A stretch of 55,785 nucleotides of DNA from an uncultured Pseudomonadota bacterium (GTDB taxonomy: Bacteria > Myxococcota_A > UBA796 > SXON01): NCBI GenBank assembly GCA_903844155.1, contig CAIMSU010000073.1, positions 1-55,785 on the forward strand, in the 5' to 3' direction. A program made the translations under genes and the position numbers. A model generated the notes under the pieces. It had not been told where the DNA came from, searched no databases, and was given only the letters and a program-made list of their open reading frames with translations. Below are positions 13,673 to 42,729 of this stretch, piece by piece; position 1 is the first letter of the stretch, and each line of letters begins with the position of its first letter.

Positions 13673-16600
13673 CTAGCCCCCGATGGCGTCCCGCGCCGCA
13701 GCGATGGCGTCGTGCTGGTCCGGGTAGCGCTTCTGCAGTTCATCCAGGATCCTTCGGGCCTCCGTCGAGTCGCCCTGCGCATTTTCGGCAGCAGAGCGTC
13801 CGATTTCGGCCTGGACGATGTAGTAGGCATCCGTGGTGCTCGCCTTTGCCGCGTTGAACTCGTCGAGCGCGCCCTTGGCATCGTCGGCACGCAGCGCGCA
13901 CTCGCCGAGCCCGAGCAGGCGCACCGTGCGCTCCTCGGCGCCGCCAGCGAGCTTGTCGTACACGTCGTGGGCTGCTCCCACCTGGTTCTGATCGAGCAGC
14001 GCCTCGCCGCGGACCTGCGCGATGGAGAGGGTGTAGCCGGGGTCGGGCGTCGCGAGCTTGTCGAGGGCCGCCAGCGCGGTCTTCGGATCGTCCTGGGCCA
14101 TGGCAACGCGCGCGAGACCAAGGTTCCCGGCCGTCTTCGTCTCGTTGTCCTCGGCGTCCGCGAGGCGCTGCCACGCCTCCTTGGCGTCGTTGAGCTTGCC
14201 CATGCCTTCTAGCACGAGCCCGCGCTCCGCCGGCACCCTTGGGTCGTCGCAATTCGCGAGGAGGTTTTGGGCGTCTTCGAAGTTCCCCGCCTCCCGCGCC
14301 ACGCGGGCCAGCCCGTAGCAGGCGCTCGCATCGCCAGACGCCTTGAGCGTGTCGAGCACCTTCTGGGCGCCGTGGAAGTCACCGGCCTCGATCCTCGTAT
14401 CCGCCTCGGTCTCCGCGACCCAGGCCTTGTCCTGGGAGTCCGTCGGGGTGAGTCCGGCCAGGAGCGTAGCTGCGTCGTCGGCCCGCCCCGCGTCCCTCAG
14501 CGCCCCGGCCCGCTCCATCGCCAGTTCAAAACCCCCCTCCTTCGCGTACTTCACGGTGATCGCCAGCGCAGGTTCCGCCTGCCCTTCCGCCCGAAGCGCA
14601 CGCACGGCGGCCACCGCAAGCTCGCCCCGCAAGTCAGCGTCCTCCTCGTCGGCCAGCCAGGCGTTGATCTGGTCCTCGCCCTCGGTCACCTTGTGCAGCG
14701 CGATCGCCGCCCTCAGCCAGCCGCTACGGGCGTCTGCGCGGTCCTGCCCGGCCGGTGCCTCAGCCATGGCCGCGGCGAAACGCGCCTCGGCCGCGGCGGG
14801 ATCGGTCGTGAGCTTCTGCTCGCCGACGGCGATGTTCGCCTTGATTCGGACTTCGGGCGCAGGGGCGGTCATCAACTTCTCGTAGACGTCCGCCGCCGCG
14901 GGATCCTGCGCCTCGGAGAGCGCCTCGGCCAGCGCGATCTGCAGGTCCAACCGGCGAGCAGGCTCGGCCCGTGCTGCGGCCCCGGACGCCAACGCACGTC
15001 GATATGCGTCGGCGGCGCCCGGCCAGTCGCCGTTCTTGCCCCGAAGCTCGCCGAGCGCCGAGAGCGCCTCCAACGACCAGGAGCCGTCCGTCTTCCCAAC
15101 CTCCAGGTAAAGGCGTTCGGCCTCCTCGTTCTTGCCTGAGAGCGCGGCGATCCGCGCCAGCCCGAGGTTGCACTGCGCGGCAACATCGGCGTCATCGACG
15201 GACCCCGTCGTGGCCTGGGCGAGCAGGCCCCGGTAGACCTTGTCCGCCTCTCCCACCCGGTTCCCGTGAACATAGGCGTTCGCGGCCCCGAGTTGGATGC
15301 GTCGCTTGACCGAGAGCGACGAGGTCGCCGCCATCATCGCGTCGTACCGGTGCAACGCGCCCTCGGGGTCCTTGTCCTCGACCATCAGATCCGCGAGCGC
15401 AAGCTGGGCTTCAAGCTTGGCTTCAGCGCCGGTATTCACGTCGTCCGCAAGCGCGGCCCAAACAGCCTGCGCCTCCCGCCGCTTCCCAGCGTCCTGCAGC
15501 GCGCGGGCCTTTCCAAGCTCGACGGACTCCTTCAGGTCCGGGTTGGCGTTCTCCAACTTCGCCGCCTCCTCCGGGTTCGTCTTGAGCAAAAGGCGCGCGA
15601 GGTCGAGCCGCGCCTCGTCCGCGACGCGAGGCTCGATCCCGTCGATCGCGAGCAGCGTCCTCAGGCTGGTGATGGCCCCGTCGTTGTCCCCGGCGCGCTC
15701 GTCGATCTCGGCCACGAGCGCATCGGCGCGGGCACGGAGCGCAACGTTCGTGGAGGATTGCAGCGGGGCGATGGTCGCCCGAGCGGCCTTGTCGTTCCCG
15801 CGACGCGACAGGAGATCGGCAGCGCCAAGCGAGCCTTCTTCGCCCCCGGGCTCGGAGAGTACCTGCCGGTACAGCGCGAGGGCACCGTCCTCGTCGCCCC
15901 CATCGGCGAGCAGGCGGGCGAGGCGGACCCGAAGCGCGGTGCGGTCCTTGGCGACCTCGGGGGAGGTGCTGACGGTCGTGGCATCGAGCGCGTGCTCGAT
16001 GGTCGAGCGGGCGCTGGCGACGTCGCCGATGCCGGACCACCCTTCGGCGAGGGCGAGGGCCAGGGCCGTGCGCTGGACGTCGGTGTCCGTGGAGGCGAGG
16101 ACCTGGACCTCGCGGTCGAGGAGCGCAGCCCGTTGATCGGCGGGGAGGATCTGGGCGAGGCCGACGAAGGCGGAGGCCCGGTCCGACGGGCCGACATCCG
16201 TCCGGGCGAGGACGCGCTCGTAGGTCGCCTGGGCCTGCAACGCGAGGTCGTGGTGCGCCTGCATGTCCGCGAGGTGGAGGAGCGCGCGCGGCAGATCGTT
16301 GCCGTCGCCGGCGATCGTGACGGCCTGGTCGAGCTGCTCGAGGGCCGGGCCGACGAGGCCGGCCTCCTCGTACGCGCTGGCAGCCTCGATGCAGTAGTCG
16401 ACGTGCTGACTCGGGTCGTTTGCGGCTGCGGCGAGGCTCGCAAACCGCTTGGCCGCCTGAGCCGGGTCGCCGGACTGCTGGGCGACGGTGGCCTGGTGTT
16501 CGAGCATTGCCGCGTCGCCCCCCCCACTCTCGAAGCGCGCCGCCGCGTAGACCCCCATGACGCCGAACAGGGCGACAGCAGCGGCTGTACCAACGAGCCG

Positions 16601-19600
16601 TACCCAGCCCGCCTCGCCGGCCTGTCCGAGATCCGCGCCGCGCTCGGCCAGGTCTGCCCGGGCGACGGCGTTGAGGCCCAGCGCGCCCGCAGCGCGCGCG
16701 CCGCGGACGGAGGTGGTGGTGAGGTCGACGTCGTGGAGGTGGGTCTGGTCGAGGAGGGCGTCGTCGAGCGAGGCGCGGGCGAGACTTGCGCCGCGGAGGG
16801 TGGCGGCGGTGAGATCGGCGCGGGAGAGGTCGGCCCCGGCGAGATCGGCCTCACGCAGATCGGCGCCGACGAGGCTTGCGCCGGCAAAATTCACGCCCCG
16901 GAGGTCTGCGCCTCGTAGGTCGCGCTCGTCCAGGGTGCGCCCGTGCCAGTCGGACCCGGGGCTGGGGACGGCCCCCGGGCGGTTCATGCGCGAGGCCAGG
17001 ACACGCACCCCGGCGCGAACGCCGCCGCTCATGATCAGCGCCACGTCCTGATCGAGGCTGTCGACGCCGTCGCCATGGCCGGTGGTCCGCGCGAGGATGA
17101 CCCCACGCCGACGCCGCAGCTCCAACTCAAAACGCTCCAGGCCCTGATCGCGGTCCCGCATCGCGGCGTCCTGCCGGAACGTGGCCGCTTCCTCGGCGCT
17201 GACGCCCCCGCCCACCTGGATGTTCCGACCGAGGAGCGCGTCCACCGTCCCCGCCGCCGCGCGGGCCGCAACCAGAGCGCCACCGCTGAGGAAGAGACCG
17301 AGCGGCCCCAGGGCCTCACGCCGACGGGCCTCGCGAGCAGCAGCCCGCTGCGAAAACTTCTCGCGGGCGGCGGCCGAATCGGAGCCCGCTGTTTGCAGTC
17401 GCTCCCGCTCGGCAACGAACCGGCTGTGGTCCGCCCTGGCGGCGGCCCGGGCCGCGATGACGAGCGCCGCCCAGCGCTTGTCCTCCTCGACCTTGCTCCG
17501 GTCGCGCCCGTCGATCTCGAAGTTTTCCAGCTCCAGGCGATGGTCGGCGTCCAGCGCCGCCTTCTCACGGGCCTGACGCCGCGCGATGGCCTGCATGCGG
17601 TCGTGTTGGGCGCGGCGCAGACCGGCCTGGAGCGGGCTCGGCGCGGGCTCCCCGGGCGGGTGCGCAGCAGCGGCAACCCCCGCCGCTCGTGCCCGAGCAG
17701 CGGCGACCCGTGCCGCAGCCACGCGTTCGCTCCCTGACTCGCGCTCGTCGACCTCGGCTTGCTCCACTTCAAAATCGATGCTGCGACGCTGGCTGGCCCG
17801 GACCGAGGCCGCGAGCGCCTCCTCCTCCCCGCGAAGCCGGGCAGCGCGGGCCTCGGCACGCGCCCGGCGGGCAGCCTCATCGCGCTCGGCCGAGGCGCGG
17901 GCGACCTCTCCCTCGCGCTCGGCACGATCCGCCGCCTCGGCTGCCTCTTTTGCGTCGCGCTCCCGCTGCGCCGCGGTCGCAGCCGCGACACGCGCGAGAT
18001 CCGCCTGCTCGCGCGCGGACTGGACGCGGCGGGCGTTGGCCTCGGCGAGCAGACGAGCGGCGGTGGCTGCTCGCAGCGCCTCCTCCGCGCGGATGGCGGC
18101 CTGGCGGGCCTCTTCGGCCTCGCGCTGCGCACGCCCGCGGGCCTCGGACTCCAGGGCAGCCTCGGCCTCCCTTCGGGCCGCCGCTGCTACAAGCTGGCGG
18201 GCGAGAACCGCCTCCTCGCGCGCGACCTGCTCGCGCCGGGCGTTCTCGTCCGCTCGTGCTCGCGCCGCCGCGAGCCGGGCCGCCGCTAGACGCATCGCCT
18301 CGCCCTCTCTCGGCAACGCGAACCCCTGCTCGACCCGGCGCCGGGCCCGGGCCAGCGCCTCGGCCTCGGCCGCCTGCTGCACCCGGCGTGACTGTTCCTC
18401 CGCCTGGGCTCGCGCATCGGCGAGGCGCGCCGCCGCCTCCTGTCTGGCCGCGGACGCTGCCGCGACGCGCGCGATCTCGGCCTGCTCCCGGGCGGCTTGC
18501 AGTCGGCGGGCGTTCTCCTCGGCACGCAGTCGGGCCGCCGCCAGCCGGGCCGTGGCCAACCGGCCCCCGTCGACCTCGTGCTCCGAGGCCCGCGCAACCT
18601 CCGCTTCCCGCTGGGCGTTCAGCGCAGCGTCGGCCTCAGCGCGCACTGACGCTTCCTGCTGCGCAGCCACCGCTGCGGCGACGCGAGCCAGGTCGGAGCG
18701 CTCCTTCGCTGTCTGGACCCGCAACCCCTCAACGGTCGCCCGTTGCCGCGCTTCCGCAAGCCGCTCGGCGGCAGCCGCGCGCGCCTCCTCCTCCCGTCGT
18801 GCGGCTTCGCGGACCTGGGCCGCCTCCGCCTCCACCCTCGCCGTCGCCTCGGCCCGCGCCCTCGCGTCTGCCTCCTGCCTCGCCGCGATCGCCTCCGCGC
18901 GTCGCGCCGCCTCTACTTCCGCGTTGGCGATGGCGAGCCGACGGGCGTTGTCCTCCGAGCGGGCGCGTGCCGCCGCCAGCCGCGCAGTCGCGAGGCGCAC
19001 CCCATCCGCCTGCTGCTCCGACGCGCGAGCCACCTCCGCGTCGCGCTGGGCGCGCAGCGCTGCGTCCGCTTCCGCACGCACCGCGGCCTGCTGGCGCGCC
19101 GCCACGGCGGCCGCCACGCGCGCAAGATCCGCCTGCTCGCGGGCGGCCTGTACCCTCGCACCTTCGGCGACGGCGCGCTGGCGAGCCTCTGCCAACCGCG
19201 CCGCGGCCGCCACACGCTCCTCGTCTTGCCGGCGAGCCGCTTCCCGTATCCGCTCGACCTCCGCCTCCAACCTCGCGGCCGCCTCGGCCTCGGCACGCGC
19301 CTCCTCCTCGCGCCTGGCAGCCGCGAGTTCCGCAAGATGGGCAGCCTCCGCCGCCGCTTTCGCCGCTGCCAGGCGACGCCCGTTCTCCTCCGAGCGGGCG
19401 CGCGCAGCGGCGAGCCGCGCCGTGGCCAGCCTCCCGGCCTCCACCTGCTGCTCCGAGGCCCGCGCCGCCTCGGCATCACGCTGCGCTCGCGCAGCCGCGT
19501 CCGCCTCAGCGCGCAACGCCGCCTCCTGCCGCGCCGCGTCGAGGCGTAGCGCCGCCTCCTGCCGCGCGGCCTCCGCGGCCGCCGCCCGCGCAAGATCCGC

Positions 19601-22600
19601 CTGCTCCTTCGCCGCCTGGACGCGGCGAGCGTCCTGCTCCAGACGCGCCCGTGCCGCCGCCAACCGGGCCGACCCCACCCGCGCCGCATCACTCTCCAAC
19701 CGGGCCACATCCCGCTCGCGCTCCACCTCCTCGCGGAGCCGGGCGGCCGACTCGGCGTCGATGCGAGCGTCGAGCTCACGACGCGCCGCCGCAGCGGCCG
19801 CGACCCGGGCCGCCTCGGCTGCGTCGCGTGCGGATTGCAGCCGTGCTGCCTGTTCTTCCGCACGAAGGCGAGCCGCAGCGAGACGCGCCTGCGCCACCCT
19901 TCCGCCCTCCACCGCCCGCTCGGTCAATCGCGCCGCCTCGGCCTCACGCTGGGCGCGCGCCGCCGCCTCCACCTCCGCGCGGACTGCCGCCTCCGCGCGC
20001 GCCGCCGCCGCCGCAGCGACGCGGGATTGCTCCGCCTGCTCCCTGGCCAACGCCGCCCGAGCCGCTTCTGCGTCGGCCACGGCCCGGGCTTCGGCGAGCC
20101 GTTCCGCCGCCGCCACGCGGGCCGCTTCTTCACGACGCGCCAGCTCCCGGGCCTGCTCGGCCTCGGCGTCGGCCTTCGCGGTCGCCTCGGCCGCTGCTTG
20201 CGCCTCCGCCTCCCGCCTGGCCGCCGCGATGGCAGCCACTCGCGCAGCCTCCGCCTCGGCCTTCGCCGCCGAGAGCCGCCGCGCGTTGTCCTCCGCCCGC
20301 GCGCGCGCCGCCGCCAACCGCGCCGCTGCAAGACGCGCCCCGTCTACTTGATGCTCCGAAGCTCGGGCGACCTCGGCCTCGCGCTGGGCCCGCGCAGCGG
20401 CCTCCGCCTCCGTCCGAACCGCAGCCTCCCGTTCGGCCGCTGCCGCCGCGGCTGCGCGCGCGCGATCGGATTGCTCCCTGGCGGCCTGCATTCGCGCGGC
20501 TTCGGTGGCCGCGCGCCGCCGTGACTCCGCCAGGTTCGCTGCTGCATCTGCTCTGGCCTGCTCCGCCCGGTGCGCCGTCTCGCGCCCTTGCTCCTCCGCC
20601 GCCGCCCGGTCCGCGACCGCAGCCGCCTGGGCCCGCGCCTCGGCCTCGCGTCTGGCCGCGGCGACCTCCGCGAGCCGGGCCGCATCGGCCGCCGTTCGCG
20701 CTGAGGCCAGCTTGCGAGCGTTCTCCTCCGAACGCGCTCGCGCAGCAGCCAGGCGAGCGGCCGTCAGGCGCACGCCATCCGCGTCCCGCTCCGAGGCTCG
20801 CGCCGACTCCGCCTCCCGCTGCGCCCGCATCGCCGCCTCGGCCTCCGCGCGCGCCACTGCCTCCAGGCGGGCTGCTTCCGCAGCCGCTGCCTTTGCGGCC
20901 TCCGCCTCGGCCTTCGCCGCCAGCACCTGCGCGGCTTCCCCGGCAGCCCGGACACGCGCCTCGGCGAGGCGGGCCGCTGCGGCGACCCGCGCCTCCGCCT
21001 CCTGCACCGCCGCCTGCCGCGCACGCTCGGCGTCCGCTTCGGCCTTCGCGTTGGCCTCCGCCTCCGCGCGCGCCTCCGCCTCCCGTTTGGCCGCTGCAAC
21101 CTCGGCTCGACGGGCGGCGTCTGCCTCTGCCTTCGCGGCGGCAAGTCGGCGCGCGTTGTCCTCCGCGCGGGCCCTGGCGGCCGTCAGCCGCGCAGCCGCG
21201 AGCCGCGCCCCGTCGGCCTGCTGATCCGATGCGCGTGCGACCTCGGCCTCGCGCTGTGCACGCACCGCGGCGTCCGCCTCCGCGCGCGCCGCACCCTCGC
21301 GCAAGGCCGCCTCAGCCGCGCTGATGCGCGCCTGATCAGCCTGCTCTTTCGCGGCCTGGACTCGCCGGACCTCGGCCTCCGCCCGTGCCCGCGCAGCGGC
21401 GAGGCGGGCGTTGGTCACCCGGCGCTCGTCCTCCGCGCGGCGGGTGGCATCGCGCTCCCGCTCGGCCTGGGCGCGAGCGCGAACTGCCACCTCTCCCTGC
21501 GAGCGGGCCTCCGCTTCAGCTCGGGCTGCGACCTCGGCTTGCGCTCGCGCGACCTCCGCCTGCTCCCGGGCAACCGCCGCTCGGGCTCGGGCCGCGGTGA
21601 GACGAGCGGCCTCCAGGCGCGCGTCGCCGGCCGCAAGTCCGGTCGTCCGCACCTCCTCGGCGGCACGCTGGGCCCGTGCTTCAATCTCCGCTTCTTCGCA
21701 CGCCTCGGCCTCCTGCTGCGCAGCGAGCGCAGCGGCAGCCCGTGCCGCCTGGGACGCCTCCTTGGCCTCCCGAACCCGCACCGCCTGGGCGTCGGCCGCC
21801 TCCCGGGCCCGCGCCAGGCGCACTCCCACGGCGCGGCGCGCTTCCTCCCGGGCCTGCGCACCGGTACGCTCCGCCTCCTGCTCCTCCTGCGCCCGCCGGG
21901 ATGCCTCCGCGGCCGCCCGCGCCCCGGCCTCCTGGAGCGCCGCGGCCTGGGCTCTGGCCCGAGCGGCGCTTGCCGCCTGCGAGACTGCCTGCAGGCCGCG
22001 TGCAAACTCCACCATGCGCGCGCGAGCGGCGGTCAGGCGGTTGCCAGGCGCCTGCGGTGCGCCCGCCACATCGGCGCTCGCCAGGTCGCGCTCTGCCTGC
22101 GCTGCCCGGGCTACCTGGTCGGGGGCCTCGAGCTCCGCAAGCTCGGCAGCGGCAACCGCCACCCGTGCGAGCTCCGATTGCGCCGCCGCCACCTCGGCCA
22201 GCCTCGCGTCCTCCTCCGCCCGTTCGCGCACCACCACGGCACGTTGTGCGTCCAGGCGAGCAGTTTCCTGACGGACGCCTTCCGCCTTCGCCAGCGCCGC
22301 GCCGAGCACCTCCCGCGCGTCGGCGTCGTCAGAGACCACGCCCGCGATCTCGGCGAACGCGCGCAGGTGCTCGATGCGTTCCTCTGCGGCGGAGAGCTCG
22401 GCCCTCGACTCCTCCTCGACCGAGGCGTGCGCGAGCAGCTCCAAAGCGAGCGTTGCGGCCTCAACGTCGGTCCGGGCGCGGGCATCCGCCTCAAGCGCGC
22501 TTTGAAGCGCCACCGCCGCCTGCGCGGAGGCATCATCGTCGGCCGGAAGCGGCTCCGCGCCAGCCGCGTCCTCGTTGCTCTCGGCGAGCGTGAGTCGGGC

Positions 22601-24343
22601 TTCGGCGGCGACGAGGTCGGCCCCAGCGCGGCGCGCAGCCGCCCCCTCGAATGAAACCCGCCGGCGCGCCTCGGCCGACGCTGCCATGCGCTCCTCTTCG
22701 GCCCGACGATCCGGATCGGCTGGCCGAGTCGAAGGCGCGACTTCGTGCCCCGCACCAAGCGTGCCTTCGACGCGGTCAGCAGCGGTCGCGCCCGCCGATT
22801 CGCGCGCAGGAGTGGACACGTCAAGCGAGGTCACGAACACGCGTGACGGCTCGAAAGCCAAGGCTCGACGAGAATAAACAGCCATCACCCGACCGGACGG
22901 GCCGGTGATGGCTGCCCCGTCACCGTCAGCTTGCTCGCTATCAACGCGGAGTTCATCGACTTGGTCCGCCTCGGGCTCCTGATCTGGCGCGACCTCATCC
23001 GGCATCGGCTCGTCGAGGCTCGCCTGCTCGTAGAGGATCCGCTCCGCCCGCAGCCGCTCGGCTTCGGCCACCCGCGCCAGCGCTTCCGCTTCTGCCTCCG
23101 CTCGAGCGGCGATGGCAGCCTTGCGGCGCAAGTCGGCGTACCGCGCGCGCCTCGCCCGCGTACGGCCAGCGTTGTCGAGAGCGGCGCCCGCCTCGCGCGC
23201 CTCCTCGTCCCGGCGCACGGCGTCCACGGGAAAATCGCGATCGCGGCCGATGACGTCGCTGCGTGCGGGCTCGACATCGGTGCCGAGCACCGCCCGGGCC
23301 CAGTCGCGCCCGCCCTCGGCGACCCGTTGGGCGCGAAGGCGGAGGCGCTCGCGGCGGTTCGCGTCGTTCCAACGCGCTTCCCGGGCGCGTCGTACAGCAC
23401 GAGCGCGGAGCACCGCCTGGGTCTGGGTCCGAATCGCGGCGGTCGGGTCGACGACGGGCAACCGGGGCGGGGCGGGCGCAGCGACGGGCGCGACGTTGAC
23501 GCGGGGGGGAGGCCGGCGCTTCACGCTGGCGGGCACGGCCATGAGCGCGGCGAGCGCCTTGTCCTGCAACGGCGGGCGCCAGCCGCGTTCCTGCAGCTCA
23601 GCCCGAAAACGCCCGGCTGATGCCGATGAGATGCGGGCACCCCGAAGCCGGTTGCCCTCTCCGAGGAACCCGGCGAGGTCCACCCCGCGCAGGTCCGCGA
23701 CGAGCAGCGCCGCCCCCTCAGCGATCACCGCCCCCCTGGCGCCGAGCCACTGAGACCCGGTGAGCCCGGCCCGGTGGAACAGGAGCCCCTCGACCTCCGC
23801 GTGGTCAAGGCACACGCGCTCGAGCAGGGCCTCCGTGAGGTCCGCGCCCGTCAGATCCGCGCCGTCGAGGCGCCAGGACCGGCCCCGGACGCCGACCATC
23901 GAGGCGCCCCGAAGCGTGGCCCGTCGCCACTCGGCACCCTGGACGCGTGCGCCGTCGAGCACCGCGTTGGTCGCGTTGATGCCAAATGCCTGGGACCGAC
24001 GGAAATCTACATTCCGTGCATCCGCGTCTACAAGCGACGCGCCATCGAGATCGGCGTCTGGAACAAGTGCGTCGATCAGGATCGCGCGGTCGAGGCAGGC
24101 GCCGACGAGCCGGGCGCCAGCCAGGTTCGCGCCCCGCAGGTTGGCCTCCGTCAAGTTGGCATTCGAAAGGTTTGCCGCCTGTAGATTCGCTTCGGAGAGG
24201 TCCAGCCCGGCGAGGTTCACACCCCGCAGGTCGCACCCGCGCAGGTCCTGCCGGGCCAGCCCGCCTTGCGAAAAGTCCGCCCCGCGCAGGTCGAGCCCGC
24301 GCCCGATCGGACGCGCAGGGGAATCGCGGGCAGAGCTACTCAC
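13673..24343 (-). CDS. giant pentapeptide-repeat / helical-repeat / TM / TPR protein
   Basis: One uninterrupted frame of about 3,556 codons. Residues of about 15-215 are pentapeptide repeats (A[DN]LxG, for example LSEANLQAANLSNANL). Residues of about 300-475 are charged helix. Residues of about 477-540 are encoded by a dispersed repeat. About 540-2225 is an Ala/Arg/Glu-rich helical region with at least seven tandem units of about 145 residues. At 2470-2550 is a second pentapeptide block (LRGADLRGVNFAGASL). At 2578-2603 is one transmembrane helix (GTAAAVALFGVMGVYAA). From 2610 to the end are TPR repeats. There is no signal peptide, so the N-terminal 2,570 residues are probably cytoplasmic and the TPR domain periplasmic (inference). 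GTG 24343 lies six bases after TACAAT. The frame is open further upstream to 24814 but runs antisense into murA. A scaffold role is a guess. I know of no named family with this order. Confidence 0.85.
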   Translation of the reverse strand: MSSSARDSPARPIGRGLDLRGADFSQGGLARQDLRGCDLRGVNLAGLDLSEANLQAANLSNANLTEANLRGANLAGARLVGACLDRAILIDALVPDADLDGASLVDADARNVDFRRSQAFGINATNAVLDGARVQGAEWRRATLRGASMVGVRGRSWRLDGADLTGADLTEALLERVCLDHAEVEGLLFHRAGLTGSQWLGARGAVIAEGAALLVADLRGVDLAGFLGEGNRLRGARISSASAGRFRAELQERGWRPPLQDKALAALMAVPASVKRRPPPRVNVAPVAAPAPPRLPVVDPTAAIRTQTQAVLRARAVRRAREARWNDANRRERLRLRAQRVAEGGRDWARAVLGTDVEPARSDVIGRDRDFPVDAVRRDEEAREAGAALDNAGRTRARRARYADLRRKAAIAARAEAEAEALARVAEAERLRAERILYEQASLDEPMPDEVAPDQEPEADQVDELRVDSEQADGDGAAITGPSGRVMAVYSRRALAFEPSRVFVTSLDVSTPARESAGATAADRVEGTLGAGHEVAPSTRPADPDRRAEEERMAASAEARRRVSFEGAAARRAGADLVAAEARLTLAESNEDAAGAEPLPADDDASAQAAVALQSALEADARARTDVEAATLALELLAHASVEEESRAELSAAEERIEHLRAFAEIAGVVSDDADAREVLGAALAKAEGVRQETARLDAQRAVVVRERAEEDARLAEVAAAQSELARVAVAAAELAELEAPDQVARAAQAERDLASADVAGAPQAPGNRLTAARARMVEFARGLQAVSQAASAARARAQAAALQEAGARAAAEASRRAQEEQEAERTGAQAREEARRAVGVRLARAREAADAQAVRVREAKEASQAARAAAALAAQQEAEACEEAEIEARAQRAAEEVRTTGLAAGDARLEAARLTAARARAAVAREQAEVARAQAEVAARAEAEARSQGEVAVRARAQAERERDATRRAEDERRVTNARLAAARARAEAEVRRVQAAKEQADQARISAAEAALREGAARAEADAAVRAQREAEVARASDQQADGARLAAARLTAARARAEDNARRLAAAKAEADAARRAEVAAAKREAEARAEAEANAKAEADAERARQAAVQEAEARVAAAARLAEARVRAAGEAAQVLAAKAEAEAAKAAAAEAARLEAVARAEAEAAMRAQREAESARASERDADGVRLTAARLAAARARSEENARKLASARTAADAARLAEVAAARREAEARAQAAAVADRAAAEEQGRETAHRAEQARADAAANLAESRRRAATEAARMQAAREQSDRARAAAAAAAEREAAVRTEAEAAARAQREAEVARASEHQVDGARLAAARLAAARARAEDNARRLSAAKAEAEAARVAAIAAARREAEAQAAAEATAKADAEAEQARELARREEAARVAAAERLAEARAVADAEAARAALAREQAEQSRVAAAAAARAEAAVRAEVEAAARAQREAEAARLTERAVEGGRVAQARLAAARLRAEEQAARLQSARDAAEAARVAAAAAARRELDARIDAESAARLREEVERERDVARLESDAARVGSARLAAARARLEQDARRVQAAKEQADLARAAAAEAARQEAALRLDAARQEAALRAEADAAARAQRDAEAARASEQQVEAGRLATARLAAARARSEENGRRLAAAKAAAEAAHLAELAAARREEEARAEAEAAARLEAEVERIREAARRQDEERVAAAARLAEARQRAVAEGARVQAAREQADLARVAAAVAARQQAAVRAEADAALRAQRDAEVARASEQQADGVRLATARLAAARARSEDNARRLAIANAEVEAARRAEAIAARQEADARARAEATARVEAEAAQVREAARREEEARAAAAERLAEARQRATVEGLRVQTAKERSDLARVAAAVAAQQEASVRAEADAALNAQREAEVARASEHEVDGGRLATARLAAARLRAEENARRLQAAREQAEIARVAAASAARQEAAARLADARAQAEEQSRRVQQAAEAEALARARRRVEQGFALPREGEAMRLAAARLAAARARADENARREQVAREEAVLARQLVAAAARREAEAALESEARGRAQREAEEARQAAIRAEEALRAATAARLLAEANARRVQSAREQADLARVAAATAAQRERDAKEAAEAADRAEREGEVARASAERDEAARRARAEARAARLRGEEEALAASVRASQRRSIDFEVEQAEVDERESGSERVAAARVAAARARAAGVAAAAHPPGEPAPSPLQAGLRRAQHDRMQAIARRQAREKAALDADHRLELENFEIDGRDRSKVEEDKRWAALVIAARAAARADHSRFVAERERLQTAGSDSAAAREKFSQRAAAREARRREALGPLGLFLSGGALVAARAAAGTVDALLGRNIQVGGGVSAEEAATFRQDAAMRDRDQGLERFELELRRRRGVILARTTGHGDGVDSLDQDVALIMSGGVRAGVRVLASRMNRPGAVPSPGSDWHGRTLDERDLRGADLRGVNFAGASLVGADLREADLAGADLSRADLTAATLRGASLARASLDDALLDQTHLHDVDLTTTSVRGARAAGALGLNAVARADLAERGADLGQAGEAGWVRLVGTAAAVALFGVMGVYAAARFESGGGDAAMLEHQATVAQQSGDPAQAAKRFASLAAAANDPSQHVDYCIEAASAYEEAGLVGPALEQLDQAVTIAGDGNDLPRALLHLADMQAHHDLALQAQATYERVLARTDVGPSDRASAFVGLAQILPADQRAALLDREVQVLASTDTDVQRTALALALAEGWSGIGDVASARSTIEHALDATTVSTSPEVAKDRTALRVRLARLLADGGDEDGALALYRQVLSEPGGEEGSLGAADLLSRRGNDKAARATIAPLQSSTNVALRARADALVAEIDERAGDNDGAITSLRTLLAIDGIEPRVADEARLDLARLLLKTNPEEAAKLENANPDLKESVELGKARALQDAGKRREAQAVWAALADDVNTGAEAKLEAQLALADLMVEDKDPEGALHRYDAMMAATSSLSVKRRIQLGAANAYVHGNRVGEADKVYRGLLAQATTGSVDDADVAAQCNLGLARIAALSGKNEEAERLYLEVGKTDGSWSLEALSALGELRGKNGDWPGAADAYRRALASGAAARAEPARRLDLQIALAEALSEAQDPAAADVYEKLMTAPAPEVRIKANIAVGEQKLTTDPAAAEARFAAAMAEAPAGQDRADARSGWLRAAIALHKVTEGEDQINAWLADEEDADLRGELAVAAVRALRAEGQAEPALAITVKYAKEGGFELAMERAGALRDAGRADDAATLLAGLTPTDSQDKAWVAETEADTRIEAGDFHGAQKVLDTLKASGDASACYGLARVAREAGNFEDAQNLLANCDDPRVPAERGLVLEGMGKLNDAKEAWQRLADAEDNETKTAGNLGLARVAMAQDDPKTALAALDKLATPDPGYTLSIAQVRGEALLDQNQVGAAHDVYDKLAGGAEERTVRLLGLGECALRADDAKGALDEFNAAKASTTDAYYIVQAEIGRSAAENAQGDSTEARRILDELQKRYPDQHDAIAAARDAIGG
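18070..21600 (-). repeat. tandem repeats of about 435 bp inside the giant gene
   Basis: The marker CGTT[CG]TCCTCCG and close variants recur near 18511, 18946, 19381, 19851, 20284, 20719 and 21154. Spacings are 435, 435, 470, 433, 435 and 435 bp. Each unit encodes about 145 residues, from LAAARAR[AS]E[ED]NARRL to QREAEVARASE and the next LAAAR. The 470-bp unit has a 12-residue partial duplication (AARQEAALR). Outer boundaries are approximate. Confidence 0.85.
22720..22916 (-). repeat. dispersed ~198-bp repeat, in-frame copy in the giant gene
   Basis: Read on the minus strand, this segment matches the intergenic segment 40615-40812 along nearly its full length by eye. It has the same hairpin start (GCCATCACC...GGTGATGGC), the same TTTATTCTCGTCG block, GACGTGTCCAC, and a long exact run beginning CGACCGCTGCTGACCGCG. 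Here it encodes about 64 residues between the N-terminal charged region and the long helical region, without a stop. Small indels relative to the other copy restore one continuous frame. Confidence 0.88.
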
Positions 24344-24349
24344 AATGCA

Positions 24350-24355
24350 ATTGTA
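24350..24355 (-). promoter_or_regulatory. -10-like TACAAT, leaderless-type promoter of the giant gene
   Basis: TACAAT ends six bases before GTG 24343 on the minus strand. The surrounding 25 bases are unusually AT-rich for this DNA. It shares CTGCGATAC context with the promoter at 3285. No good -35 box is seen. Confidence 0.5.
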
Positions 24356-24448
24356 TCGCAGATCACGTCGCCGAGCGCGTCCGAACCGCTGGCACGCTGC
24401 TTGCGATTGAAGGTGGCGACAGCAACGCAGCGCTGGTGCTGCTCCCGC

Positions 24449-24467
24449 CCCGGAGATAGTCTCCGGG
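24449..24467 (+). promoter_or_regulatory. hairpin in the murA leader
   Basis: CCCGGAGA, loop TAG, TCTCCGGG is a perfect eight-base-pair inverted repeat 23 bases before the murA ATG. It could be an operator or a leader hairpin. No conventional Shine-Dalgarno sequence lies between it and the start. Confidence 0.45.
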
Positions 24468-24490
24468 CCGCTCCACACCACGGATTCTAC

Positions 24491-25762
24491 ATGGACAAGC
24501 TGATCATCGAGGGCGGGGTGCCCCTGCGCGGCACGGTGCCGATCTCCGGCGCCAAGAACGCCGCCCTCCCGCTCCTGATGGCGACGATCGTGGCGCCTGG
24601 CGAGCACCGCCTCGCCAACCTGCCCGAGCTCGCCGACGTAGAGTCCATGCTCTCGCTGCTCGGCCGGATCGGCTGCCCGTCGCTGATCGGCCCCATCGTA
24701 CGTATCGACACGTCTCGCGTAGCGTGGTGCGAGGCACCGTACGATCTGGTTCGTAAGATGCGCGCTTCTGTGCTCGCGCTCGGGCCCCTGCTGGCGCGCT
24801 GTGGAGAGGCGCATGTGTCACTTCCCGGCGGCTGCGCCATCGGCGTGCGGCCGATTGATCAGCACCTCAAGGGCCTGGAGGCGCTCGGCTGCAGCTTCCG
24901 GATGGAGAACGGCTACGTCCACGGCAAGGTCTCGCAGCTCCGGGGCGCCGAGATGCGGCTCGACATGCCGACGGTCACGGGCACCGAGAACATCCTGATG
25001 GCCGCGGTCCTGGCCGAGGGCGACACCATCATCGACAACGCCGCCGCGGAGCCCGAGGTCGAGGAGCTCGGCGCGTTCCTGAACGCGCTCGGGGCGAAGG
25101 TCGAGGGCGCTGGGACGCCGACCATCCGCATCACAGGCGTCACGTCCCTCGCGCCGCCAACGCGCGCGTGGAGCATCCTGCCCGACCGCATCGAAACGGG
25201 GACGTACCTTGTCGCCGCGGCGATCACGGGCGGGGACATCACGTGCGAGAATGCCCGCGCTGGCGACCTCGTGGCCGTGCTGGACGTCCTGGAGCGGGCG
25301 GGATGCCTGGTGGAGCGGGGCGAGGACAGCATCCGCGTCGCTCGGACGGGGCCTGTCCGCCCGGTGGACATCACAACCGAGCCACATCCTGGCTTTCCGA
25401 CGGACATGCAGGCGCAGCTCATGGCGCTGCTCTCCCTCGCCGAAGGCGACTCCCACATCCGCGAGACGATCTTCGAGAACCGGTTCATGCACGTCGCCGA
25501 GCTGCTGCGCCTCGGGGCCCGGATCGACATCAACCTGAACCTGGCGACGGTCCACGGCGTTGGCGGCCTGCAAGGGGCATCGGTGATGGCGACGGACCTC
25601 CGGGCCTCGGCGTCGCTCGTACTCGCTGGTCTGGCCGCGCGCGGGCGCACGGAGATCCTGCGGATCTACCACCTCGACCGTGGCTACGAGCACCTCGCAG
25701 AGAAGCTCGCGGCCGTGGGGGCGCATGTCCGCCGCGGCGAAGAGGGCCGGCCGGGGGTCTGA
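24491..25762 (+). CDS. murA: UDP-N-acetylglucosamine 1-carboxyvinyltransferase
   Basis: The 423-residue cytoplasmic enzyme transfers enolpyruvate from PEP to UDP-GlcNAc, the first committed step of peptidoglycan synthesis. Seen: GAKNAALPLLMA at the N-terminus, the active-site loop LPGGCAIGVRP with Cys115 (the fosfomycin-reactive residue and the usual number), TGTENILMAA, PDRIETGTYLVAA, HPGFPTDMQAQ and ENRFMH, all in family order. ATG 24491 gives the standard MDKLIIEGG start. The frame extends upstream only as a shadow. It is divergent from the giant gene (147 bp) and convergent with glutamine synthetase. Confidence 0.96.
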   Translation: MDKLIIEGGVPLRGTVPISGAKNAALPLLMATIVAPGEHRLANLPELADVESMLSLLGRIGCPSLIGPIVRIDTSRVAWCEAPYDLVRKMRASVLALGPLLARCGEAHVSLPGGCAIGVRPIDQHLKGLEALGCSFRMENGYVHGKVSQLRGAEMRLDMPTVTGTENILMAAVLAEGDTIIDNAAAEPEVEELGAFLNALGAKVEGAGTPTIRITGVTSLAPPTRAWSILPDRIETGTYLVAAAITGGDITCENARAGDLVAVLDVLERAGCLVERGEDSIRVARTGPVRPVDITTEPHPGFPTDMQAQLMALLSLAEGDSHIRETIFENRFMHVAELLRLGARIDINLNLATVHGVGGLQGASVMATDLRASASLVLAGLAARGRTEILRIYHLDRGYEHLAEKLAAVGAHVRRGEEGRPGV

Positions 25763-38634: not shown

Positions 38635-40521
38635 ATGCTGGTCTTCGCCCTCGCCTGCACGGTTCCCTCGCCAAGCGCCTACGTCGCCAACACCTCGGCG
38701 CTCGTGGACTCCGGCGTCACCGTTGAGTACCTCCCGGACTCGTCCACCGATTCCACAGTCCCAACGCCGGACTCCGGCGACTCCGCACTCAGCGATTCGC
38801 CCGAGTCCGCGGACTCCGCCAGCGACTCCGTCCCCGATTCCCCGCCCGACACCGGCCCTTTTGACGCCGACGGCGACGTCTACTTTGCCGCCACCGACTG
38901 CAACGACGCCGACTCCTCAATTCACCCGGATGCCACCGAGATCCCCTACGACGGCATCGACCAGGACTGCGACGGCGCGGACCTCAACGACGTCGACGGT
39001 GACGGGCTCGTCTCTGTCGCCGCGGGCGGCACCGATTGCGACGACGATGCTGACGGCCACGACGCGATCGCGTGCGGCGGTGACGACTGCGACGACGCCC
39101 TCGCAACCGCCTACCCGGGTGCGGTCGAGGTCGCGCTGAGCGGCATCGACGAGGACTGCGACGGCTACGTGGACCTCGACGTCGGCTCGCTCGCCGACGT
39201 GTCCGTCGAGTGGGACGGCACGGGCGGCACCGACTCCGACCGCTACATGCTCGGCCGTTTCCCACCCGTCTCCCTCGGCGACATCGACGGTGACGGCTCG
39301 CCCGACCTCATGACCGCCGCCGGCGACGTGCTGGTGCTGATCCCCGGTGGCTCCGTCTGGAGCGGCGGGGCGACGAAGACGGTCCTCGACGACGCCATCG
39401 CCGACATCCCCTGGACCTTCCCGGACGCGGGCGACGAGGGCGGTTGGTACAGCGTTGCGGCCGCGGGTGACGTCGATGGCGACGGCGTACCCGATCTGGC
39501 GACGATGAGCGGCTCCGATGACTGGGACGTAGGCTGCACGTACTATGGCGCGATCCAGGCGGGCTCCGCGCTGGCGGTGGGCGGAGATGTCGCCGCATGG
39601 CCGGCGTATTTCTCGGTCGCGACGGGACCGCCGTTGAACGAGGACAGCTGCGTCGACGCGCCCTCGCCCGCGAGCGGGGACTTCGACGGAGATGGCGTGA
39701 GCGACTTCCTGTTCGGGACGTACAAATACCACTATCCGGCCGGCGAGGTCTGGGAGGTGTTCGGGAGCAACGCAGCGATCGGCGGCGATACGGTTGCGGC
39801 CGACGCGGACGCCGCGATCACGGAGAGCGTGAACGGTCGGGCCGGCGGTTACCTCCAGAACGTCGGTGACTTGAACGGGGACGGCGTCGACGATGTCGCG
39901 ATCGGCGCGTACAAACTCACGATCGTGGATGGCGCGAAGCTCGGCGAGGGCGGGACCATCGACCTCGCGACGGACGCCCTGACCACCTTCTCGGACGTGT
40001 ATGGCTTCTCCGACCACACCTCCGCCACCGCGCTCGGCGACATCGACGGCGACGGCAAGAACGATCTGGCAATCGGCGGGTCCACCACCGCGGACGGCCC
40101 CTCCTACCCCCTGCTCGTCTACCTCGACCCCGGCGTCGGCGGCACGCTCGCGTCCACGGACGCCGCGGCCGCGATCCTCGGGGGTCCGGACGAAGGCGTT
40201 CAGTCCGCCGCCAGCGGCAGCCTGCGGGGCGCAGGCGACGATCTGGCGATCGCCCATGCGATCTCCTCCAGCGACTGGTGGGAACAAGTGTCCCTCGTCC
40301 CCATCGAAGACATCCCGCTCACCGGCACCCTCGACCTCTCCGCGTCCGACGACTTCCTCCACGACGCGGCCGATTACTTCGGCTCCGACGGCCTCCTCCT
40401 CGTCGACCTCGACAACGATGGCGACGACGAGCTCGTCACCGCCGACTACGCCGAGGGCATGACCGACGACTACGACTACGAGCCGCCGGGCAAGATCCGC
40501 ATCTTCGGGAACCCGCGCTAA
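38635..40521 (+). CDS. MopE-motif / FG-GAP surface lipoprotein, short signal peptide
   Basis: The 628-residue protein has a Cys at position 8 (MLVFALACTVP), then an Asp/Ser/Pro linker. Three metal-binding motifs of the DCxDxD...GIDxDCDG type follow at about 85-185 (DCNDADSS, DQDCDG, DCDDA, DEDCDGYVDLD). FG-GAP blades come next (DIDGDGSPDLM, DVDGDGVPDLA, DLNGDGVDDVA, DIDGDGKNDLA). The seven-residue pre-Cys sequence is too short for a normal lipoprotein signal, and TGA 38608-38610 closes the frame upstream. The 5' end may have been cut when the neighbouring repeats moved in. Confidence 0.75.
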   Translation: MLVFALACTVPSPSAYVANTSALVDSGVTVEYLPDSSTDSTVPTPDSGDSALSDSPESADSASDSVPDSPPDTGPFDADGDVYFAATDCNDADSSIHPDATEIPYDGIDQDCDGADLNDVDGDGLVSVAAGGTDCDDDADGHDAIACGGDDCDDALATAYPGAVEVALSGIDEDCDGYVDLDVGSLADVSVEWDGTGGTDSDRYMLGRFPPVSLGDIDGDGSPDLMTAAGDVLVLIPGGSVWSGGATKTVLDDAIADIPWTFPDAGDEGGWYSVAAAGDVDGDGVPDLATMSGSDDWDVGCTYYGAIQAGSALAVGGDVAAWPAYFSVATGPPLNEDSCVDAPSPASGDFDGDGVSDFLFGTYKYHYPAGEVWEVFGSNAAIGGDTVAADADAAITESVNGRAGGYLQNVGDLNGDGVDDVAIGAYKLTIVDGAKLGEGGTIDLATDALTTFSDVYGFSDHTSATALGDIDGDGKNDLAIGGSTTADGPSYPLLVYLDPGVGGTLASTDAAAAILGGPDEGVQSAASGSLRGAGDDLAIAHAISSSDWWEQVSLVPIEDIPLTGTLDLSASDDFLHDAADYFGSDGLLLVDLDNDGDDELVTADYAEGMTDDYDYEPPGKIRIFGNPR

Positions 40522-40523
40522 AA

Positions 40524-40597
40524 ATGTATGAAAACCGACGACGTCACTTTTCGCACATATCAAAAGTGACGTCGTCGGTTTTCGTATGTGGGGGTCG
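40524..40597. repeat. palindromic repeat family A, copy 1
   Basis: A perfect 21-bp inverted repeat (arms 40531-40551 and 40562-40582, core ACCGACGACGTCAC) surrounds a ten-base loop. The flanks ATGTATG and CGTATGTGGGGGTCGG recur at copy 2. It starts just after the stop of the FG-GAP gene. Confidence 0.9.
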
Positions 40598-40614: not shown

Positions 40615-40812
40615 GGCCAGCCATCACCCGCCCCTCCGGTCGGGTGATGGGTGTTTATTCTCGTCGCGCCTTGGCTTTCCAACAACCGCGCGGCTTCGTG
40701 CTTCGGTTGACGTGTCCACACCTGCGCGGATCTCAGCGAGCGCGACCGCTGCTGACCGCGTCGAAGGCACGCTTCGTGCGGGGGCACGAAGCCGCGCCTT
40801 CGACTTGGCCAG
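40615..40812 (+). repeat. dispersed ~198-bp repeat, intergenic copy
   Basis: It is homologous along its length to 22720-22916 (minus strand) inside the giant gene. It fills the gap between the FG-GAP gene and the M3 peptidase gene and ends at the base next to the peptidase stop codon. Indels relative to the other copy break the reading frame, so this copy is not a coding pseudogene of the same frame. Confidence 0.88.
40621..40658 (+). terminator. hairpin with T-rich tail inside the 198-bp repeat
   Basis: CCATCACCCG and CGGGTGATGG form a ten-pair stem with a ten-base loop, followed by GTGTTTATT. It could end transcription of the FG-GAP gene. The same hairpin is present in the copy inside the giant gene. 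Confidence 0.5.
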
Positions 40813-42729
40813 TCACTTCTTGGCCGGTACAGCCTTCGCAGGCTTTGCTCCAGCCTTCTTCGCCACGATCGCCTCCATCTGGTCCATGATGGCGTTCATC
40901 TCGGCGGCCACGGCGTCGTAGGGGGCGGGCGTGGCCATGTCGACGCCGGCGGTCTTGAGCAGGACGTAGGGGTCGTTGGAGCCGCCTGCGGAGAGCAACG
41001 TGATGTACTTGTCGAGCACGCCGGGCTTCTTCGCGAGGATGTCCGTGGAGAACTGCGACGCGGCCGCGATGGAGGTGGCGTACTGGTAGACGTAGAAGTC
41101 GTAGTAGAAGTGGGGGACGTACGCCCACTCTGCGCCGTCGCGGTCGGCGATGTGGGTGACGGCGTCCGCGCCACCGGTATCGCCGTAGTAGCGCTTGAGG
41201 ATGCCGAGGTAGGTCTTGGACAATCCTTCGCCCGTGAGGGGCTCGCCGTGCTCGACCTGGTCGTGGATCGCCAGCTCGAACTCGGCGAACTGGGCCTGGC
41301 GGAAGTAGGTCTGGCGCAGGCCTTCCAACTGGGTGCCGAGGAAGTAGAGCTTCTCGTCGTCCGACTTGGAGTCCTTGAGCATCTGCTGCATGAGCAGCGC
41401 CTCGTTGCACGTCGAGGCGATCTCGGCGATGAACGTGGAGTAGTCCGCCTTCGCGTAGGGCTGGTTCTTCGCGGAGAGCACGCTGTGCATCGCGTGACCC
41501 CACTCGTGCGCGAGCGTGGTCACGCTCTCGTAGTCGCCGTTGAAATTCAGCAAAAGGAAGGGGTGAACGGCATAAGCGGCGCCGTCCATGTACGCGCCCT
41601 CCTGCTTGCCCGCGTGCGGGTACGCATCCATCCAGCGCCCGCCGAAGCCGGCCTGGAGCTGCGACGTGTAGGTCGGTCCGAGGGGCTTGGTCGCGGCGAT
41701 GGTGAGCGCCTCCGCCTCGTCGATGGTCCAGTGCTTGTCCAGGTTCACGAGCGGGGGGTACATGTCGCTGTACTGCAGGTCGGTGATCCCGAGGATCTTC
41801 GCCCGCAGCTTGAGGTAACGATGCAGCGTCGGCAGGTTCTTGTTCGTCGTGGCGACGAGCGTGTTGTAGACCGCGACGGGGACGTGGTCCTGGTCGACCG
41901 CCGCTGCGACGGAAGAGTCGTAGTGGTGCGCCTTTGCGACGAGCCAGTGCCCTTCGACGGCAGCACCCAGCGTCGCGCCGAGCGTGCCCTGGTAGGCCTT
42001 CATCGTCCCATAGAACGCGTCGAACACGGTCTTGCGGTCGTCGCGGTCAGGGACCTGCCGGTAGAGCGTCCAGGCGGAGGGGTCGAGGTGGATCTTCGTG
42101 CCGTCCTTGAGCGTGACGTCCGGCCAGGGGATCTCGGCGTTGATGAGGATGCCGTGGATGTGGTCGGGCTCGCCGAGGATCGTGCCGGCGCCGGCGAGGA
42201 GGCCTTCGCTGTTCGCGTCGAGCGTGTGGGGCGCGTCGACGACGATGGAGCGAAGGAAGTAGTCGTACGGCGCAAGGCCGGGATCGGCCTTGATCGCGGC
42301 TTCTACGGCCGGGCCGCCCATCGCGAGGATCTCGGGGGCGAAGAATGCGCTGGTCTCGCCAAAATGCGTGGCGAGGAGGCCGGCCTGCTGCGAGCGCTGC
42401 TGCAACGTCGCGTCGCGGGTGTCGGCGTTGGAGAGGTTGCTTGCGTACGTGTAGATCCGCGCTACCGTCTCCTGCAGCGTGAAGCGTTTGTCCAGGCAGG
42501 CCTTGAGCTGGTCCTTGAGGTGGCCCTGGCAGGCGGTCAGCGCGTCCGCGTCCGTGTTCGCCTGCTTCAAGGCGGCCGTCCAGGCGTCCACGGAGGGGTA
42601 GACGGCAGAGAGGTCCCAGGTGTCCTGAACGCGGGGGGTCGGCGCGGGCGTGTCACCCGCGAGGGCGGTGCCGGCGACGAGGGCGAGGACGACAGACGGG
42701 GCGACGAAGGCGGGAAAACGACGGTTCAT
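40813..42729 (-). CDS. pepF: M3 family oligoendopeptidase F-like, secreted
   Basis: The 638-residue zinc metallopeptidase has a signal peptide (LALVAGTALA) and an N-terminal helical domain (WDLSAVYPS). The active site is HEWGH at 408-412, with the third ligand Glu in the EIASTCNEALL segment. IHDQVEHGEPLT and VPHFYYDFYVYQYATS are typical of PepF. Most PepF enzymes are cytoplasmic, so the signal peptide implies periplasmic or extracellular peptide degradation. It ends in a Lys/Ala-rich tail (AKPAKAVPAKK). The stop codon adjoins the dispersed repeat at 40812. No clear ribosome-binding site was seen. Confidence 0.92.
   Translation of the reverse strand: MNRRFPAFVAPSVVLALVAGTALAGDTPAPTPRVQDTWDLSAVYPSVDAWTAALKQANTDADALTACQGHLKDQLKACLDKRFTLQETVARIYTYASNLSNADTRDATLQQRSQQAGLLATHFGETSAFFAPEILAMGGPAVEAAIKADPGLAPYDYFLRSIVVDAPHTLDANSEGLLAGAGTILGEPDHIHGILINAEIPWPDVTLKDGTKIHLDPSAWTLYRQVPDRDDRKTVFDAFYGTMKAYQGTLGATLGAAVEGHWLVAKAHHYDSSVAAAVDQDHVPVAVYNTLVATTNKNLPTLHRYLKLRAKILGITDLQYSDMYPPLVNLDKHWTIDEAEALTIAATKPLGPTYTSQLQAGFGGRWMDAYPHAGKQEGAYMDGAAYAVHPFLLLNFNGDYESVTTLAHEWGHAMHSVLSAKNQPYAKADYSTFIAEIASTCNEALLMQQMLKDSKSDDEKLYFLGTQLEGLRQTYFRQAQFAEFELAIHDQVEHGEPLTGEGLSKTYLGILKRYYGDTGGADAVTHIADRDGAEWAYVPHFYYDFYVYQYATSIAAASQFSTDILAKKPGVLDKYITLLSAGGSNDPYVLLKTAGVDMATPAPYDAVAAEMNAIMDQMEAIVAKKAGAKPAKAVPAKK

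Follow-up and report, generated by a model that had tools for sequence, protein, structure and literature searches.

Selfish repeats inserted in frame into conserved proteins are familiar above all from intracellular bacteria whose genomes are reduced and AT-rich, and there weak selection offers an easy explanation. REP, BIME, and REPIN sequences and the palindrome-bounded elements derived from IS200/IS605 carry subterminal hairpins, make no target duplication, and form mosaic head-to-tail arrays. In-frame fusion of small mobile repeats has been described for Rickettsia, Wolbachia, and the ERIC, RU, and Correia elements; in Rickettsia, 19 reading frames contain a repeat, and the guanylate kinase stays active (PMC2229807, PMC10969869). 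Such fusion is documented in part for Coxiella (PMC5896051). A myxobacterial case was not found in the open-access literature, to which the search was confined. The phenomenon is thus already known; as far as could be checked, the element, the phylum, the two-subfamily fold, and the array structure reported here are new.

Like RPE and the Wolbachia palindromic repeats, the present element is short and structured, occurs both between and within genes, and sits in frame at tolerant sites of conserved proteins, whose reading frames remain open (PMC2229807, PMC10969869). Compared by features (ends, fold, and gene location) rather than by sequence, it differs from RPE in its length (196 bp versus 105 to 150), in having neither terminal inverted repeats nor target duplications, in forming three separate helices instead of one long stem-loop, in its head-to-tail arrays of two subfamilies, and in its host, an apparently free-living, 70% GC myxobacterium. 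We conclude that it behaves as the Rickettsia palindromic elements do without belonging to them. The earlier note had likened it to Rickettsia-like coding palindromic repeats, a likeness that holds for dispersal, for in-frame presence in four genes, and for empty sites in relatives but fails for membership in the RPE family, given the ends. With the bacterial MITEs ERIC/IRU, RU-2, RU-3, and Correia it shares being non-autonomous, about 100 to 200 bp long, folded, mostly intergenic, and fused in frame to some genes (PMC2229807). Terminal inverted repeats occur in most of these MITEs, and target duplications and TA ends in several; the present element shows none of these. The subterminal hairpins at both ends, the lack of target duplication, and the arrays recall REP/REPIN or IS200/IS605-derived elements. 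Its unit, however, is much longer than those of REP, BIME, and REPIN and includes a long-range stem, and no linked or end-matching Y1 transposase was found in the draft assembly.

Two copies of the element were located in the window, by which we mean the whole 55,785-nucleotide stretch of DNA analyzed. Its relevant features are as follows, with the basis for each in parentheses.

13673 to 24343, minus strand: giant gene hosting copy 1, 3556 aa with the probable GTG start at 24343 (translation; start backed by orthologues)
22720 to 22917, minus strand: element copy 1, subfamily A, in frame within the giant gene, ~65 residues, GAAITGPSGRVMAVYSRRALAFEPSRVFVTSLDVSTPARESAGATAADRVEGTLGAGHEVAPSTRPA (alignment with copy 2, genome search, translation)
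22881 to 22912, minus strand: 5' hairpin of copy 1, helix 1 of the family fold (consensus fold, compensatory changes)
22721 to 22778, minus strand: 3' hairpin of copy 1, helix 3 (consensus fold; single-strand DNA fold z = -3.8)
40615 to 40812, plus strand: element copy 2, subfamily A, between convergent genes (alignment, genome search)
40620 to 40651, plus strand: 5' hairpin of copy 2 (consensus fold, compensatory changes)
40753 to 40811, plus strand: 3' hairpin of copy 2 (consensus fold)

That the same ~198-bp element occurs here twice, hairpin included, was borne out by pairwise alignment: the two copies, at 22720-22917 (-) and 40615-40812 (+), are 198 bp each, align end to end with 87% identity, and have the 5' hairpin in common. 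When one copy was compared with the window by BLAST, the match had an E value of ~1e-60, so the likeness is beyond chance. Small indels distinguish the two copies, as the earlier note had said.

Translation through the mechanically called open reading frame 13673-24814(-), which spans 3713 codons, confirmed that the genic copy is in frame in the giant gene, behind the pentapeptide/linker part. Translation probably begins naturally at the GTG at 24343. An orthologue in genome G001 starts at the matching position, and the residue numbers given earlier are consistent with this start. The protein comprises pentapeptide repeats, a long Ala/Arg/Glu-rich coiled coil, a second pentapeptide block, and a C-terminal region whose sequence resembles tetratricopeptide (TPR) repeats, though without a Pfam match; copy 1 lies directly past the pentapeptide-repeat/linker part, inside the coiled-coil region. 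Searching with a 603-residue piece of the protein, we found orthologues in three congeneric genomes at 52 to 61% identity across the pentapeptide domain and linker. These congeners have kept the N-terminal pentapeptide domain, their coiled-coil sequence cannot be aligned with that of the giant protein, and a search of the three genomes for the element returned no copy. Because the coiled coil has diverged and the site cannot be aligned, the empty site here is deduced from the element-free genomes, which indicate that this lineage acquired the segment. The ~65 extra residues are probably an unstructured linker extension, a by-product of the filter proposed below and not a selected domain.

The earlier note had called the element a dispersed repeat on the strength of two copies, and the genome search strengthened this considerably. 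The host genome is an 8.13-Mb draft of 375 contigs, 96% complete, with ~70% GC. It yielded more than 50 matches, which fall into 40 places; eight weaker or partial places from a protein-level search bring the total to ~48, a count in which a copy split between two contig ends may figure twice. Many places are at contig ends, as expected for a repeat that breaks short-read assembly. Of the interior places, 20/26 are between genes and only 6/26 are in genes, even though the surrounding sequence is ~91% coding; the intergenic copies occur in convergent, tandem, and divergent gaps. By glutamine synthetase, the relatives are lake metagenome-assembled genomes labeled Myxococcales, Deltaproteobacteria, or proteobacterium, which places the host among the Myxococcota of lakes. 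A search of 37 relatives turned up no copy, the 196-base consensus of the element was absent from 62 other genomes of the same order, and an exact 22-base core matched nothing in 84,980 GTDB species genomes or in IMG/VR viral contigs. At a looser threshold, one genome of the family gave a lone match of 29 bases (E 5e-5), which we take as chance. Within the reach of these searches the element is therefore restricted to this species, and horizontal spread was rejected.

Genes at the element places were called by codon usage, with a gene finder that had been trained on the same genome, and named from Pfam and NCBIfam. By these calls, four genes read through a copy, with about 65 to 100 extra residues predicted per host protein. 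Besides the giant gene, these are the following.

Locus L165 (contig C77): RecQ helicase, 869 aa, element at residues 379-444 (66 residues), element reversed
Locus L163 (contig C277): sulfotransferase, 412 aa, element at residues 96-160 (65 residues)
Locus L181 (contig C105): membrane protein, 692 aa, element at residues 365-465 (100 residues; 1.5 units)

All three sites are loops of varying length among relatives, and all three are empty there: 17 family genomes aligned across the RecQ site lack the insert, as do 11 relatives at the sulfotransferase site and 8 at that of the membrane protein. These data support extending the single case of the giant gene to a pattern of four in-frame, stop-free insertions. 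A fifth gene, for a TonB-like protein (L249), contains the 3' part of the element only, within a Pro/Ala-rich stretch.

Two further genes have been broken by the element. In a B12-binding radical-SAM gene (L164), the copy lies immediately ahead of the CxxxCxxC motif and adds an in-frame TGA; the gene is uninterrupted in congener G003, at 68% identity. In a ferritin-like gene (L166), so named by reading the sequence and without a Pfam match in its 3' half, a net insertion of 199 bp causes a frameshift, and the gene is intact in G010. Both relatives thus preserve the empty site. The two broken genes imply that insertion is not guided to preserve the frame and that the intact cases are what selection tolerates. 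Separately, the radical-SAM gene (L164:3200-4583) appears to have a further frame change downstream, which fits either a decaying gene or an assembly error.

The family fold has three parts: columns 4-35 form a 5' hairpin, columns 48-54 pair with 127-133 in a long-range stem, and columns 140-198 form a 3' hairpin. Across the copies, 97.5% of pair cells form, and five pairs have changed on both sides; the covariation score was reached by 0/500 shuffles, and slid pairings drop to about 40%. The five double changes are confined to the 5' hairpin; for the other two helices, which hardly vary, the support is conservation only. Certain copies have another 5' hairpin sequence that is palindromic nonetheless. 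The 5' hairpin is followed by TTTATT. In subfamily B, of about 205 bp (e.g., L184:4171-4380, L182:4585-4795, L198:4229-4434, and L248:2369-2575), the 5' hairpin is that of subfamily A, as is the junction word TGGCCA, and the sequences of the long-range stem and 3' hairpin differ; B nevertheless folds into the three-part layout of A (z = -6.9). Full and partial units of A and B are joined head to tail via TGGCCA, forming mosaic arrays.

The ends of the element (GCAGCCATCACC versus CTGGCCAAGTCG) form no terminal inverted repeats, and in 18 single copies the words shared by the flanks were no longer than in shuffled flanks (p = 0.61), giving no sign of target-site duplication. It is therefore not a classical MITE derived from a DDE transposon. 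As candidates of the Y1 (HUH) type for mobilizing hairpin-bounded elements, only two transposase-like genes were found in the draft assembly, L252 (C268) and L253 (C113), one of which scores above the Y1_Tnp cutoff. Their 3.3-kb loci in this assembly have no element-like ends, and neither gene lies in the element regions examined, which gives no support for a RAYT/IS200 partnership with either.

We consider it very probable that this is a non-autonomous, structured mobile repeat of ~196 bp that stays in genes only where it is open and falls in a tolerant loop. What was observed is the set of ~48 places, the two subfamilies, the three-part fold, the arrays, the filled sites that were formerly empty, and the four open host genes. 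Its spread within this genome would have gone by way of a folded single strand or another structured intermediate, mobilized by an enzyme supplied from elsewhere. Most genic insertions would then have been lost, those that persist being the ones in which the frame was kept by chance and the loop tolerated extra residues. For the movement itself, we infer by analogy a possible single-strand route that recalls IS200/IS605-type transposition. A bolder form, in which a lineage-restricted, two-subfamily repeat without terminal inverted repeats or target duplication moves as a single strand, repeatedly lengthens unrelated proteins of a free-living bacterium, and has had some of its peptides recruited, strikes us as unlikely. 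The case comes from a large genome, rich in GC and apparently that of a free-living bacterium, and is matched by empty sites in many relatives and by broken insertions; it shows that an open frame together with a tolerant loop can account for the pattern as a filter on their own. RecQ, the sulfotransferase, and the membrane protein provide a natural set of insertion tolerances.

Two similar segments in one window, one of them genic, might suggest that the giant gene has been duplicated, the segment being native to it and the intergenic copy a remnant of the duplicate. This is next to impossible, being refuted by the copies elsewhere: the ~48 places include unrelated genes and intergenic sites, each match is confined to the element, and the genomes carrying giant-gene orthologues are without it, the reverse of orthologues that all hold the segment in genomes with no other copies. 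It is quite unlikely that the hosts gained a useful 65-residue module or that the element's own frame is selected as a protein-coding mobile peptide. One forward frame is indeed stop-free in nearly all of the 32 full-length copies, an ATG behind the 5' hairpin opens that frame, and four host proteins carry the segment. Open frames are nonetheless common, as expected, at 70% GC, and copy 2 itself has two open forward frames, so that openness is not, as was claimed earlier, peculiar to the genic copy. Substitutions among 34 copies showed no third-position excess (p = 0.65); codon positions are thus equally variable, coding selection on the element was rejected, and the element is not evolving as a protein. 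Moreover, the RecQ element is in the opposite orientation, and hence encodes another peptide, and a broken gene also carries the element.

With the fold conserved and no coding signal, it is structure that was maintained. This constraint could also point to a repeat that acts as a regulatory RNA or in the manner of a terminator, retained in intergenic gaps for a function at the RNA level and present in genes by accident, a reading that gains from the TTTATT behind the 5' hairpin, from the predominance of intergenic copies, and from the lack of any Rfam match in the window, by which a known RNA family is set aside. We regard it as very unlikely: the gaps that hold copies are convergent, tandem, and divergent alike, a terminator scan at copy 2 found nothing, so that terminator function was rejected there, and elements moving as folded DNA should show a constrained fold just as much.

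The setting of copy 2 agrees with its earlier description as intergenic: it sits between the gene for an FG-GAP/MopE protein at 38635-40521 (+) and that for an M3 peptidase at 40813-42729 (-). Its core (40618-40812) begins 97 bp past the stop codon of the former and directly adjoins that of the latter. Between the stop of 38635-40521 and copy 2 there is also a near-perfect inverted repeat at 40526-40590 (gaaaaccgacgacgtcactttt ... aaaagtgacgtcgtcggttttc), which probably serves the two convergent genes as their own terminator.
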